A stretch of 56,581 bases of DNA, from IMG/VR virus record IMGVR_UViG_3300031576_000050, positions 1 to 56,581 of that record; one strand, 5' to 3'. The position numbers and the translations under genes were made by a program. Under the pieces are notes generated by a model that saw only the letters and a program-made list of their open reading frames with translations, made no database searches and was not told the origin of the DNA. Positions 20,028 through 56,581 of the stretch are shown here, piece after piece (position 1 is the stretch's first letter; every line of letters begins with the position of its first letter). The stretch comes from a virus.

Positions 20028-20082
20028 CGCTGGCCTCTCTCTTGAGTTGTGGGGCTAGCTCGCCCCGTTGAGGGGAGCCTAC

Positions 20083-20102
20083 GCCAGCTGGCGACGTACG
20101 TC
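20083..20102. promoter_or_regulatory. Two abutting 10-bp palindromes (operator-like)
   Basis: GCCAGCTGGC (20083-20092) is followed without a gap by GACGTACGTC (20093-20102). Each is a perfect palindrome. They lie 56 bases upstream of the first left-operon gene and are candidate sites for a dimeric regulator such as the phage ribbon-helix-helix protein. Confidence 0.45.
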
Positions 20103-20126
20103 TAGTCAGATTCCAAGATTGTTTAG

Positions 20127-20156
20127 AGCTCCTGGCACGAAGGTAGCCCAGGAGCT
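20127..20156. terminator. Hairpin, 9-bp stem
   Basis: AGCTCCTGG (20127-20135) pairs with CCAGGAGCT (20148-20156) around a 12-base loop. No U-tract follows on either strand. It probably acts together with the larger hairpin at 20278-20325 to separate the two operons. Confidence 0.45.
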
Positions 20157-20277
20157 AGACGAGGATGATCAAGATCGCAGCCCGTTTAGGCAAGCCAGGC
20201 CATCGGACGCTCCTCTCCCTCACGCGCGTAGCGCGTCCTGAGCGTACCGCTGGCCTACCAACTGCGTCTAGGGAGCC

Positions 20278-20325
20278 GGCAGCCCCAGGCTTTACGAGGG
20301 TGCGACTCCCCAGCCTGGGGCTGCC
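20278..20325. terminator. Large hairpin after the holin-like genes, 13-bp stem
   Basis: GGCAGCCCCAGGC (20278-20290) pairs perfectly with GCCTGGGGCTGCC (20313-20325) across a 22-base loop that can itself form GGG-TGCGACT-CCC. It lies about 55 bases past the end of the lysis cassette (stop at 20381) and is the likely end of the late transcript, although no U-run follows. Confidence 0.6.
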
Positions 20326-20380
20326 TCGGGAGGCACGTAGGGAGAGGCCAAGCTACCCACGCATCCAATCACCGATCACC

Positions 20381-52267: not shown

Positions 52268-52671
52268 ATCTCCTCCTTGTAGTGTCCCTCCCAAGAGTGT
52301 CGCTTACCTGCAAGGTTGCCGCTAGCAGCCCAAGCGAGATCGCTTTGCAGGGATATCGGGAACAACATCCTGTACACAGCTGACGGGGTGCCTGGATCTC
52401 CAGGGTGGAATGCAGTGGCAGCTTCGGTAGTAAGCTGTACAGTAAGTATCTCTGTATAGTCAGCCCCAATCCATGCAACCATTGGGTCCTCAGGCTGATC
52501 AATCCTTTCTCCCCGCAGTTCCTTCACTGCCTCCAGAAAGATGCGCCCATCCCTTGCCTTGATGCCAATAATCGGGACATCAACGATGTCCAAGTGCACT
52601 GTTGCCTCTTTGCCAAGATAGCATGTGTAGTCAGCCTGTAGGCGTAGCCAGCCTAGCGTAGGTGAGTTCAT
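52261..52671 (-). CDS. Hypothetical beta-rich protein, 136 residues
   Basis: The sequence contains RLQADYTCYLGKEATVHLDIVDV and VAWIGADYTEILTVQLTTEAATAFHPGDPG, with alternating strands. No motif is recognised. It overlaps the upstream gene by 4 bases and the downstream gene by 7. Confidence 0.55.
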   Translation of the reverse strand: MNSPTLGWLRLQADYTCYLGKEATVHLDIVDVPIIGIKARDGRIFLEAVKELRGERIDQPEDPMVAWIGADYTEILTVQLTTEAATAFHPGDPGTPSAVYRMLFPISLQSDLAWAASGNLAGKRHSWEGHYKEEIW

Positions 52672-52877
52672 GGGCGCTCAAGCTGCACAGTGGCCAGGTC
52701 CTGGCCAGACTTTGCGGGGTCAAGGGCGTAGATCTCCCTCAGCTCCTGTCCTATCTCAGTCAGCACTGCAGTGCCGCTCGCGTTACCAACTAACCGACCT
52801 ACCCGCATCTGTGGGTCGATCAGCCCTGCCCCACCACTGAACTCGCCATGGCCCGTGGTGTCTCTCTCTGTAGCCAT
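52668..52877 (-). CDS. Hypothetical protein, 69 residues
   Basis: It begins MATERDTTGHGEFSGGAG and has a helix TEIGQELREIYALDP, ending LATVQLERP. A GGAAGGGGAATAAG stretch stands before the ATG. The function is unknown. Confidence 0.5.
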   Translation of the reverse strand: MATERDTTGHGEFSGGAGLIDPQMRVGRLVGNASGTAVLTEIGQELREIYALDPAKSGQDLATVQLERP

Positions 52878-52878
52878 C

Positions 52879-53004
52879 TTATTCCCCTTCCTGTGATGAT
52901 GCGTCTATCTTATTCCCGTGGCCACAGTCACACCATGTCCCGCCACGGCAACGGTCATGCTGCCCCGTCTTACAATCTTCACAAATGAATCGCAGACAAT
53001 CCAT
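52879..53004 (-). CDS. 41-residue Cys/His-rich zinc-finger protein
   Basis: From ATG at 53004 (GGGAGAGAG upstream) the product has CEDCKTGQHDRCRGGTWCDCGHGNK. This dense Cys/His pattern (CxxC..H..C..CxC.H) is typical of actinophage micro-zinc-fingers that bind two zincs. It is the first gene after the structured region, so it is expressed early if that region is a promoter. It may regulate host or phage genes. Confidence 0.65.
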   Translation of the reverse strand: MDCLRFICEDCKTGQHDRCRGGTWCDCGHGNKIDASSQEGE

Positions 53005-53286
53005 CTCTCTCCCAACTGATCGTCACCTGGAAATAATTATTGTCGCTATGGAAGCTGCTCATAGCTGCACAGTGCAGATTCTAGTATGCATCGTGCTTGC
53101 CTCCCCGCGACTGCACAGTCATGCCTCTCGCTAGTCTCCTCACAAGCCTCATCTTGACACAAGTATCGCCCATGGCACCCGATGCCGCTGGCAGCAGGTA
53201 GCCTATGTGTAGTATGGTCCATGTTCAGTGCCTCTCATGATATCGACCAATAGCGGTAGAATAAAGGATCTTCTTCATCGAGCGGC

Positions 53287-53427
53287 CCCAGTAGCCCCAG
53301 TTGCAGCCGACCTAACGGCTGCATGCGCGCGATCCCGCGCGCGAGAAACTGTAGGGGACTCTGTAGATCGACTTGTGCACAATACGTACCTATACCCTCT
53401 CTCCTCTCTATAACTGGGGCTACTGGG
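53287..53427. repeat. 16-bp inverted repeat with 109-base spacer
   Basis: CCCAGTAGCCCCAGTT (53287-53302) is the exact reverse complement of the sequence at 53412-53427. Each arm contains the GCCCCAGTTG-type motif that recurs elsewhere in this region, which makes it iteron-like. Confidence 0.6.
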
Positions 53428-53461
53428 TACCGGAAAGATCCTTGCCTTGTCTCCCAACAGA

Positions 53462-53490
53462 TTGACATGGCCCCAGTTGCCCCTTAAACT
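53462..53490 (+). promoter_or_regulatory. Sigma70-like promoter on the plus strand
   Basis: A perfect TTGACA (53462-53467), 17 bases, then TAAACT (53485-53490) give a good -35/-10 pair pointing opposite to all genes. The spacer contains a copy of GCCCCAGTTGC. A 9-bp inverted repeat begins at the last -10 base, so the start site may lie within an operator. Transcription would run antisense into the primase gene. Confidence 0.45.
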
Positions 53491-53519
53491 AGGCCCCAAC
53501 TGCGTCCGACTGGGGCCTA
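53490..53519. promoter_or_regulatory. 9-bp inverted repeat at the plus-strand promoter (operator-like)
   Basis: TAGGCCCCA (53490-53498) and TGGGGCCTA (53511-53519) are perfect reverse complements around 12 bases, covering the expected transcription start. It could bind a dimeric regulator or fold as a hairpin. Confidence 0.45.
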
Positions 53520-53690
53520 AGAAGCACCTAAATCGGACTCTCTCCATCATTGTGGTCGCTAAAACCCTGTGTCTCGTTGCATCGATATATCGCCCCATCC
53601 CTTTAATAAGGGACTCTCCCGAGATAGGGCACATACCAACCGATAAGTCCCGACTCCCCGGACCCAGTTAGTCGATCTTCCGGCCCTAGC

Positions 53691-53748
53691 TGCACTATCG
53701 GCAACTATTGCAGGACGGCCCACGCCTAAGCCGGTTGCCGATAGTGCA
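53691..53748. repeat. 15-bp perfect inverted repeat after the primase-helicase gene
   Basis: TGCACTATCGGCAAC (53691-53705) and GTTGCCGATAGTGCA (53734-53748) are exact reverse complements with a 28-base spacer, 7 bases past the primase-helicase stop. The arm is long for a terminator and no U-run follows. It could be an initiator site, a recombinase-type site or a termination hairpin. Confidence 0.6.
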
Positions 53749-53754
53749 CGCGCC

Positions 53755-56199
53755 CTACCCGACACGCGCCCACTCCTCTCTTAGCTCCAGCCCGCGACGG
53801 TACCAGAACCGACCATCCTCATCCCGAGCGCGGAACTTCTCAAAGCCTTTCGCACTCATATGCTTGCCCCATTGTGTGATGCTAAGTATGTTGCGCTCAT
53901 CACCGTTCTGCTCTATCCAGATACGGTATGCGCGGTACAAGGACATGGCAGGTGCCTCTAGGTCGCCACCTGTCACGCACGTAGCAGCTAGGGCAGCATC
54001 CAGGTCACTCATCTCATCACGAGCCTCCAGAAGGATCGCTAGCGATGCGGGCGAGGGTGCCCCAAGCCCGTTAGCCGCGTAGAGCTGCCAGCCCGCGAGC
54101 AGCCACGCTAGCACCGCCGCGCGCCCCTCCCCCGTAGCTAGCCGTCCACGCAGGCCCTTATCGAGCTCAGAGTCTGGCATCTCAACACGAAACGGCGCTG
54201 ACTTCAGGCGCCGCCACAGCGCCTTATCTGCGTCTGGAATCTGTGGGTAGCTGTTAGTTGCCAGCCACGGTGTGAAGGCAGGCTGGCGCTGCACAAAGAC
54301 ATTGCTGTTCAAACGCCTAGCCTTGATGCGGTCCCCACCTGTGAAACGCTTTACTGCATCTGCATGCAGGAACCACCTTGCCGACGCTTCTGAGGCCACA
54401 ATGAGGCGATGAGACAATGAGTCCACAATGTCAGTGCGCGGGCTTTCATCCTGCTTCTCACGGAAGATGGAAAGGTTGAAGGCTGAGGCATACCGGCCAA
54501 GGCAGTCCATCATGGCCTCAACAAATGTTGTCTTGCCTGAACTGGTCTGCCCTTTCGCTATCACGAGGATGCGCTCTGGGTTGGCGCCTAGCAATGAGTA
54601 TCCAGCGAGCGTCTGCACCCATTCACAGTCTTCCTTATCTGGCAACACGCGCTCTATGAACTTGTCCCAGTCCCCAAGCTTGGCCTCTGGGTCAAACTTA
54701 GTGTCAGTACTGTAGGTAGCATAGTCCTCATGCCTTGTGCCGCGGAACTCATATCCGCCCGGTAGCAGCTCTACTGCACCATTTGAGCACACCAGGATCT
54801 CTGGGTCAGCATTGAATGCCTCAGCAGGCAGCACAACACCTTTCATCCCCCGCGCTAGGTCTACTGCTGCCCTTATTCTGGCAATATTCCCCGAAGCCCT
54901 AACATGTGCCAGGAACGTAGCAGCTGCCTTGGGGTCCTCAATGAACGCAGCCTCTGTAGCCATGGCACGGACAACAGCCATCATCTCGCGCCGAATGGGG
55001 CCATCCTCAGGGTCATTCACCCACAACGAAGTCTCAGGGTCATAGGTAGCCCAGCCCTGCCAGCCCGGCACATAGCGCGCGTCGCTACCTACGCGCTGTA
55101 GCAGCCTTTGTGCATTCCCTATGTCGTCACGCTCATAGTCGAATGCGCTGCTGCTAGCCCCAGCCTTTGCTTTCCCTGGCTTGGCCTTAGTAGCAGCTTC
55201 AACCACCTTGCGCTCGCTGCTACCCTGTAATAGGTCACATACATCATCTGTCTCTGGTGGGCCTTCAGCGCTGACCTTCTGCACACCCCTGATTACGATA
55301 CGTGTCCACTCCCCAGACGCACTGCCTTTCTCGCGCCGGGCACCTACGCCAATGACAAATACCTTGCGCATCTTGGCGAGTGCATTCAGTACGCCACCAT
55401 GGCCCGCCGCAGAGTCCCCGATTAGAGCCCAGGCGCCACGCAGGGCACAGTCGTGTGCACCGCCTTCATCACCAGCCATGCGTAGCTCGCGCATGTAGCG
55501 AGTAAGAGTTAGGGACATTCCCTCGCACATGCCAGCCTTACGCGCTTCTAGCCAGGCTGTGGCATCCTTTTTTGACATCTCGTCATCTGCAGGATGCGGC
55601 ACCCAGGCTTTCCCGCCCGTCAGGCCTTTAACCCAGCCAGGCGGTAGGTCTGGGATATCAGCAACAGATGGGATCTCATCATCAACAATCACCCCATCTG
55701 GCCGTATCCACATATACATCCGCTTCTCAGGATGCATTGACGGGAATACTACAGCATAACGATGATCCCAGCGGAGTAGCTCCACCCCTGGGCCTACCTG
55801 CCCCGGCCATGCCAGCCCCTCTGGCACCGTGAATAGGTAGATGCCGGAGCCATCCTGGCGCGAGGTACTAGCCCAGGTATCCGGCAGCCTGTCCCAATCC
55901 TTGGTGGCTTTGTTGATGGTCTTGGAGCCAGCCTTTGAGCCATACCTGTCGATGTCAATCCCAATGATGGTCTTTGGGAGGCGCAATGCTATGTTGCCTG
56001 GCGGGAATGATAGGTTGCCAGCCTGTGCATACTTGGGACGACTACCCCTGGTCCAGTCTGAAACCATCTTCCCGTCAACATACCTGCCGCCAGCTCCTGT
56101 ACAGCCATCCGGGGGCGGGAACTTCCCCCGATATGGTAATGGTATAGGTGACCATCCTGCATCCAGGTAGTCTCTGCCTGCGGCGGAGTATGGTGTCAT
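53755..56199 (-). CDS. Primase-polymerase / D5-type replicative helicase
   Basis: The 814-residue protein begins with a prim-pol (archaeo-eukaryotic primase) domain: AGWSPIPLPYRGK, IIGIDIDRYG (the metal-binding D-x-D near 80) and the WASTSRQDGSGIYLF strand. A D5/P4-type SF3 helicase follows, with Walker A VIAKGQTSSGKTTF near 550, Walker B/sensor around HRLIVASEASARWF, and a C-terminal winged-helix-like end (ITQWGKHMSAKGFEKFRARDEDG). It should prime and unwind at the origin. Its ATG overlaps the ribbon-helix-helix stop (ATGA). Confidence 0.9.
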   Translation of the reverse strand: MTPYSAAGRDYLDAGWSPIPLPYRGKFPPPDGCTGAGGRYVDGKMVSDWTRGSRPKYAQAGNLSFPPGNIALRLPKTIIGIDIDRYGSKAGSKTINKATKDWDRLPDTWASTSRQDGSGIYLFTVPEGLAWPGQVGPGVELLRWDHRYAVVFPSMHPEKRMYMWIRPDGVIVDDEIPSVADIPDLPPGWVKGLTGGKAWVPHPADDEMSKKDATAWLEARKAGMCEGMSLTLTRYMRELRMAGDEGGAHDCALRGAWALIGDSAAGHGGVLNALAKMRKVFVIGVGARREKGSASGEWTRIVIRGVQKVSAEGPPETDDVCDLLQGSSERKVVEAATKAKPGKAKAGASSSAFDYERDDIGNAQRLLQRVGSDARYVPGWQGWATYDPETSLWVNDPEDGPIRREMMAVVRAMATEAAFIEDPKAAATFLAHVRASGNIARIRAAVDLARGMKGVVLPAEAFNADPEILVCSNGAVELLPGGYEFRGTRHEDYATYSTDTKFDPEAKLGDWDKFIERVLPDKEDCEWVQTLAGYSLLGANPERILVIAKGQTSSGKTTFVEAMMDCLGRYASAFNLSIFREKQDESPRTDIVDSLSHRLIVASEASARWFLHADAVKRFTGGDRIKARRLNSNVFVQRQPAFTPWLATNSYPQIPDADKALWRRLKSAPFRVEMPDSELDKGLRGRLATGEGRAAVLAWLLAGWQLYAANGLGAPSPASLAILLEARDEMSDLDAALAATCVTGGDLEAPAMSLYRAYRIWIEQNGDERNILSITQWGKHMSAKGFEKFRARDEDGRFWYRRGLELREEWARVG

Positions 56200-56390
56200 G
56201 TGGAGCTAACCTCTAGCTCAGCTTCAGCCATTAGCTCCCTGATCCTGTCAGAGACAGCATTCCGAACAATGACGCTTTTATGCACATTCATTGCTGCAGA
56301 AAGCTGGGATAACTGGATATAGTCTAGGTCAGGCAGCCTGACGTATAGTCTGGGGCCAATGCGCGGTCTACCTACACGTCCTGCTGCCAT
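56196..56390 (-). CDS. Ribbon-helix-helix DNA-binding protein, 64 residues
   Basis: The basic strand RPRIGPRLYVRLPD is followed by two helices (YIQLSQLSAAMNVHKSVIVRNAVSDRIREL). This is the Arc/CopG-like pattern of a small dimeric repressor. It starts in the terminal repeat with a start-associated AGAGAGGCCAGA leader and is coupled to the primase-helicase gene, so it may autoregulate replication. Its binding site is unknown. Palindromes at 20083-20102 and 53490-53519 are candidates. Confidence 0.75.
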   Translation of the reverse strand: MAAGRVGRPRIGPRLYVRLPDLDYIQLSQLSAAMNVHKSVIVRNAVSDRIRELMAEAELEVSST

Positions 56391-56581
56391 TCTGGCCTCT
56401 CTCCATTTCCGGCGTCTGCAATACCTAGAGAGCCGAGCTTACTCCCTTACCCTGCAGCCAGCCAGTCATGCCCTGACAAGGCAGCCTTTCGACGCCTAGC
56501 CCAGGTAAGGGCATGCCTGAGTGCATCACGTGCGTGTGGCTTGCCAACAGTGGGTAAGTACATCCCAATGGCCTTTAGCCT
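56340..56581. repeat. Direct terminal repeat, right copy
   Basis: This 242-base segment matches 1-246 with one AGCC unit missing. It carries the start of the ribbon-helix-helix gene and, beyond it, the tail end of the RuvC-like gene. The missing four bases shift that gene's last codons. Confidence 0.95.

Follow-up and report, generated by a model that had tools for sequence, protein, structure and literature searches.

A probable iteron-type replication origin directly behind the primase-helicase gene of a phage of about 56.3 kb

Sequence seldom reveals where a phage starts replication, and the repeat-rich stretch that lies next to the primase-helicase gene of this phage raises the question of whether replication starts there. 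The window, meaning the whole stretch of DNA analyzed here, is the entire viral record of 56,581 bases. Its ends overlap by 246 bases (1–246 versus 56340–56581) apart from a single 4-base slip in a CAGC repeat, and the genome is therefore closed at about 56.3 kb. Exact end-repeat tests can miss closed genomes whose ends carry an indel, as these do. The genome encodes a DnaE-like polymerase, thymidylate synthase, and tail, portal, capsid and terminase proteins, with nearly all genes on the minus strand. Along that strand a ribbon-helix-helix (RHH) gene (56196–56390) is followed by the PrimPol-D5 gene (56199–53755), the repeat stretch, and small genes from 53222 downwards. The stretch begins right behind the primase-helicase stop codon (53755), as expected from a preliminary description of the sequence, which had proposed a candidate origin adjoining the replication initiator gene. 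With nearly every gene on the same strand, GC skew, suggested there as a check, falls monotonically and is uninformative either way. The features of the region are as follows.

56196–56390, minus strand: RHH gene, immediately ahead of the primase gene and overlapping it
53755–56199, minus strand: primase-polymerase with D5/SF3-type helicase (814 aa), presumably the initiator that binds the origin
53691–53705 and 53734–53748, no strand: arms of a 15-bp perfect inverted repeat (hairpin) just behind the primase stop codon
53661–53669, minus strand: single iteron-like unit AACTGGGTC, 1 mismatch
53490–53519, no strand: hairpin TAGGCCCCA...TGGGGCCTA, equal to two inverted degenerate units (53493–53501, 53508–53516)
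53470–53478, minus strand: single exact iteron AACTGGGGC
53412–53428, plus strand: core, gene-strand 5' arm, a tandem doublet reading AACTGGGGC/TACTGGGT on the plus strand
53395–53411, minus strand: purine tract ATAGAGAGGAGAGAGGG adjoining the 5' arm
53303–53411, no strand: spacer of 109 nt separating the two arms, where melting and priming presumably occur
53325–53342, no strand: GCGCGCG hairpin within the spacer; GC/alternating stretches look alike in relatives by eye
53303–53322, no strand: GCAGCCG/CGGCTGC hairpin abutting the 3' arm
53286–53302, minus strand: core, gene-strand 3' arm, a tandem doublet AACTGGGGC/TACTGGGG
53287–53302 and 53412–53427: 16-nt perfect inverted repeat of the core arms
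53046–53222, minus strand: small Cys/His-rich ORF, 58 aa; probably a gene and not part of the origin
52879–53004, minus strand: Cys/His-rich ORF, 41 aa, ending just outside the 53005–53754 stretch originally proposed

The extent of the stretch needs correction. All 750 nt had been taken as free of genes, yet the 58-aa ORF occupies the low end, which reduces the gene-free part to about 53223–53754. Both small ORFs have plausible ribosome sites by eye and no database match, Pfam included; they are probably small zinc-binding proteins that the first reading missed. Whether the remainder is the largest gene-free stretch of the genome, as claimed, is a matter of judgement, since unmatched ORFs of 61–119 aa cross it (GC3 0.49–0.54, compared with 0.60 for the primase) and a gap in mechanical ORF coverage at 20028–20380 is similar in size. 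That second stretch, of 353 nt, is without minus-strand ORFs of at least 40 aa. The promoter-like site proposed at 53462–53490 (plus strand) carries no weight, with one such site found and 0.7 expected by chance. The crossing ORFs, together with hairpins behind the operon that could terminate transcription, might be explained by an ordinary intergenic spacer with terminators or by an undetected coding sequence. We consider this scarcely credible: no terminator-like site was found, PHROG gave no match for the 119-aa ORF, whose GC3 of 0.54 is below that of the primase, and the iteron architecture would be left unexplained.

The repeats are real and non-random. Within 500 nt behind the PrimPol-D5 gene the 8-mer ACTGGGGC occurs five times, on both strands, while no 8-mer reaches five copies in any other tile of the genome (0/221) and the maximum in 60 shuffles is three. 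Repeats of the GCCCCAGTTG type had been reported in both orientations, and two of the three copies in the genome do lie here, with 0.24 expected for the whole 56,581-base record. Allowing at most one mismatch, AACTGGGGC is found six times in 760 nt versus 14 times in the remaining genome (0.19 per 760 nt), a density about thirty times higher. The inverted repeats described earlier are present as well, with the 16-nt and 15-nt arms listed above. The core (53286–53428) consists of two tandem doublets with a period of 9, inverted relative to each other and 109 nt apart, and this arrangement recurs in 0/221 other tiles and 0/500 dinucleotide shuffles. What matters is the 9-bp tandem unit AACTGGGGC/TACTGGGG arranged as an inverted doublet, and not the 10-mer by itself.

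Such inverted repeats also give the stretch a very stable predicted fold, with z-scores of -8.0 on the minus strand and -7.5 on the plus strand. The first of these values would suit a structured non-coding RNA made from the gene strand. We regard an RNA as very improbable because folding of the antisense strand is just as strong or stronger; in relatives that strand usually gives the stronger fold of the two, as expected of DNA inverted repeats and not of G-U-paired RNA. The fold is weak in the closest relatives (z -2.2 in L163 and -2.0 in L080), and pairing does not require tandem copies. Rfam covariance models gave no gathering match to the stretch, the best permissive hit being mir-10 at E 4.3.

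If the stretch is an origin, its position and design might be expected to recur. No DNA-level relatives were found in phage records, so relatives were gathered through their proteins; the primase alone as a query retrieved none from IMG/VR, and the set was built via the DnaE polymerase and then primase alignments. It comprises 72 non-redundant loci, 30 with a full PrimPol-D5 match and 42 matching only the D5 half; since members of one clade share ancestry, the counts below are not entirely independent of one another. In these relatives, too, a non-coding, repeat-rich stretch of a few hundred bases follows the primase gene directly, and the repeat unit changes from phage to phage (CCCAGTTA, CCCAGATA, CCCAGCTA, CCCAGAGA, GTCGTCTT and others). 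An 8-mer with at least four copies is found at 0 to +400 after the stop codon in 73% of the 30 PrimPol-D5 loci, versus 0% in all intervals from -4000 to 0 and 0–4% past +400; the figure for the 42 D5-only loci is 31%. The inverted tandem-doublet core was counted in 27/72 loci versus 3/1377 control tiles (14/30 and 13/42 loci in the two groups versus 1/678 and 2/699 tiles). Taking all loci tested together, roughly half lack the strict core. Among relatives gathered after the rule was set, the 8-mer test was positive in 7/11 versus 2/265 tiles, and 3/11 had the core. Beyond the 72 loci, the core was present in 6/18 phages and plasmids versus 0/218 tiles. The layout also occurs in cultured phages that have laboratory hosts, namely Mycobacterium phages Beezoo and LastHope (host M. 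smegmatis mc2 155) and Gordonia phage Sienna. Cores are present in a Pediococcus plasmid and Streptococcus phage Javan465 and were not found in Enterococcus phage IME_EF3.

Conservation of the repeats in relatives had been named in the preliminary description as a further check, and the outcome is mixed. There is no outright loss of repeats in close relatives, and the candidate origin regions of L081–L099, L170 and L193 have the inverted tandem-doublet core as in this phage. The closest relatives, L163 (60%) and L080 (about 54–56%), instead carry repeats that differ, are more degenerate and lack the strict inverted core. Synteny extends beyond the stretch, judged by eye, in that the gene behind it in L080 and others resembles the gene at 52668–52877 here. 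The primase match in L080 (835–3293) spans a frame change, which suggests a broken gene or an indel in the contig. The core is absent where another gene follows the primase at once, as in Zierdtviridae, phiBT1, Skylord, Kaylissa and others, so the repeat-stretch rule is common and not universal. TAGAGAG tracts resembling ATAGAGAGGAGAGAGGG occur in several relatives and in the origin of Streptococcus thermophilus phage Sfi21; the GAGAG tract is enriched (7/30 loci versus 22/869 tiles) but not general.

Another motif stays constant while the iteron arrays near it differ. With the consensus (TGTTTTC)CCTGGTMRA, it lies within 400 nt behind PrimPol-D5 genes (for example near 7539 in L082, 4059 in L084 and 7618 in L099). 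CCTGGTMRA was found in 21/43 PrimPol-D5 loci, 1/32 D5-only loci and 21/1244 control tiles (1.7%), and is possibly a PrimPol start site in these relatives. It is absent from the candidate origin region of the present phage, where the best 13-mer has 4 mismatches.

Two origins mapped or delimited by others share the layout, which on sequence comparison appears common to many unrelated phages. In Sfi21 (NC_000872, 34487–34784) a 302-bp non-coding region annotated as 'origin of replication' lies directly behind a D5-type primase gene, as the stretch here lies directly behind a D5-type primase/helicase gene. Both have inverted tandem doublets, those of Sfi21 being built on the unit AGTTAC with a period of 8 and a 71-nt spacer, and the Sfi21 spacer contains ATATATAGAGAGAGA, with a TAGAGAGAGA tract resembling the one here. 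Sfi21 differs from this phage in its unit sequence, AT-rich spacer, shorter initiator and separate PrimPol gene. The locus here shows several traits expected of iteron origins of the SaPI, Cch2 and Sfi21 kind: an initiator of the D5_N/SF3 class, a non-coding region directly behind its gene, and multiple short repeats of one sequence that are absent elsewhere.

The second origin is that of the Sulfolobus plasmid pRN1, where the experimentally minimal origin (PMC4234260) is a stem-loop of 100 bp that follows orf904, the PrimPol/helicase gene. This phage resembles pRN1 in its gene order of RHH repressor, PrimPol/helicase and origin, and in having inverted arms with tandem 9-bp units behind the initiator gene. 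The RHH-type gene upstream of the initiator occupies the place of pRN1 ORF56, named a copy control protein. The pRN1 arms read TGTCCATAG/TGTCCAACT, inverted, with a period of 9 and a spacer of 58. Long perfect arms of the pRN1 type are matched here by 16 perfect base pairs, but the spacer is 109 nt versus a loop of about 60 nt in pRN1. Other differences from this phage are that pRN1 is an archaeal plasmid, with TGTCCA as its unit and no extra single copies. In the pRN1 locus (L229, 5030–5350 and on) the stem-loop arms hold two tandem TGTCCA units with a 9-bp period. The published account describes a stem-loop without iteron structure (PMC4234260); our comparison of a few plasmids suggests, contrary to it, that the arms do contain such structure. 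The tandem character of the arms is clear in pRN1 and pHEN7, moderate in pRN2, and weak in pSSVx and pDL10.

The pRN1 work raises a further explanation, that the region is an origin read by shape, as a cruciform in which arm pairing matters and the tandem units are incidental. The perfect 16-nt complementarity of the arms here would fit, as would the weakly tandem arms of pSSVx and pDL10. In the pRN1 study, neither gel shift, which used linear DNA, nor footprinting revealed specific origin binding by ORF904, and restoring stem symmetry rescued one stem mutant (PMC4234260), a rescue that favours pairing over a sequence reading. Against this, tandem units in the arms are far commoner than chance, a random 21-mer having a tandem run of at least 6 at period 6–11 in about 1% of cases, and the unit also turns up outside the arms as additional single copies in direct and inverted orientation. 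The D5_N-type helicase Cch2 of SCCmec binds direct repeats behind its own gene via its C-terminal domain, SaPI Rep does likewise, and deletion of the inverted repeats of the Cch2 origin did not matter (PMC7581432). We consider recognition by shape unlikely, and a shape-only cruciform would still be an origin.

The same helicases bear on which protein would read the iterons. As in SaPI and SCCmec, the iterons of this phage immediately follow a gene for a self-loading helicase, although the Cch2 origin has three 5-nt iterons and the primases of those elements are separate or unusual. Other primase-helicases recognise DNA in comparable ways. The alpha protein of satellite phage P4 binds origin repeats through a winged helix (as described in PMC4234260), although its primase is TOPRIM, unlike the PrimPol of this phage. 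Phage NrS-1, which like this phage combines PrimPol and AAA+ helicase in one protein, has a primase-polymerase that recognises an 8-nt start sequence (PMC8775771). A stem-loop origin has been proposed for Bordetella phage BIP-1 (PMC4234260).

The primase-helicase of the present phage matches PHROG 1156 (DNA primase) over its full length. Its Pfam domains are Prim-Pol (10–177) and D5_N (363–519) above cut-off, DUF5906 below cut-off and a weak Pox_D5 (742–795). A phmmer search of this protein (P0001) against solved structures, NrS-1 included, gave no match, and its AlphaFold model is poor (mean pLDDT 52), with only the C-terminal domain usable. There, residues 741–806 are modelled as strand-helix-helix-strand-strand, a winged-helix-like order, at a pLDDT of about 70–89. 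Segment 741–805 is also the most divergent between the near relatives L081 and L082, whose iterons differ (54% versus 83–92% in other segments). From this divergence, the modelled fold, and the binding by Cch2 and SaPI Rep, we infer that the C-terminal domain is the likely iteron reader. Across nine initiators, residue co-variation with iteron type peaked at column 790, which falls in this domain; with a permutation p of 0.44 this is non-significant, and co-variation at the residue level is not claimed.

A competing reader is the adjacent RHH protein, for which the repeats could be an operator or a partition site, serving transcription control or segregation of a plasmid-like prophage. Known RHH proteins such as MetJ and omega bind short tandem repeats, and tandem and inverted repeats of 8–9 bp are typical of their targets. 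The gene, supported by RHH_3 at E 0.0045 (below the curated cut-off) and by an HMM from the equivalent gene of close relatives at E 1.9e-6, lies directly upstream of the primase both here and in those relatives, and is likely an operon regulator. The repeats, however, lie behind the operon and not before it. The RHH protein is further disfavoured as the reader because its presumed recognition strand (IGPKxQxxIP) is nearly constant while the iterons differ, and because cores occur without a detected relative of it at L166, L113, L153, L152, L110, L105 and Sfi21, where other RHH families could be missed. The pRN1 and Sfi21 regions, moreover, are replication origins. An RHH site is thus, in our estimation, quite unlikely.

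The repeat-rich stretch at the same place in many relatives, together with the Sfi21 and pRN1 layout, greatly strengthens the case for an origin, and a candidate origin beside the initiator gene, as first proposed, is the best reading of this locus. Judging from these comparisons, positions 53223–53754, with the core at 53286–53428, are very probably the replication origin of the phage, of the iteron kind. We hypothesize that the PrimPol-D5 initiator encoded beside the iterons binds them, most likely via its C-terminal winged helix. An arrangement of two opposed doublets flanking a spacer would suit two opposed hexamers, so that two SF3 hexamers may assemble in opposite orientation on the doublets and melt the 109-nt spacer. 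The PrimPol domain could then prime both forks for bidirectional synthesis, and the phage DnaE polymerase would extend them. The extra single iterons lie on the primase side of the core.

More tentatively, and with a little less than even confidence, we suggest that inverted tandem doublets of 7–10 bp around a spacer of 40–130 nt may be a general origin code for D5/SF3 initiators in phages, bacterial plasmids and pRN plasmids. The pRN1 stem-loop would then be made up of inverted tandem iterons that serve two opposed hexamers, lineages would rewrite the unit together with the C-terminal winged helix, and CCTGGTMRA would go with fused PrimPol and might be a start site. The added interest of the origin lies in this shared layout, which links phage, plasmid and archaeal origins and offers a new, testable reading of the pRN1 stem-loop. 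The target of the pRN1 replication protein was left as 'not yet identified sequence motifs' by its discoverers (PMC4234260), and the layout gives a testable answer to what that protein recognises. If the code holds, the origins of many primase-helicase phages should often be findable directly behind one gene; 975 phage records match the primase-helicase protein.

The specificity of initiators for DNA could likewise be studied as a natural series, in which initiators that are 80–90% identical would face different 8-bp units. In L081, L082, L083, L084, L090, L099, L170, L173 and L193, whose initiators are 47–88% identical, the iteron units differ at two positions only (GTNNCTGG: TC in CT, AA, AG and AT types), a natural series for a specificity code. 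An identical unit recurs in different subclades within the L081–L193 series.
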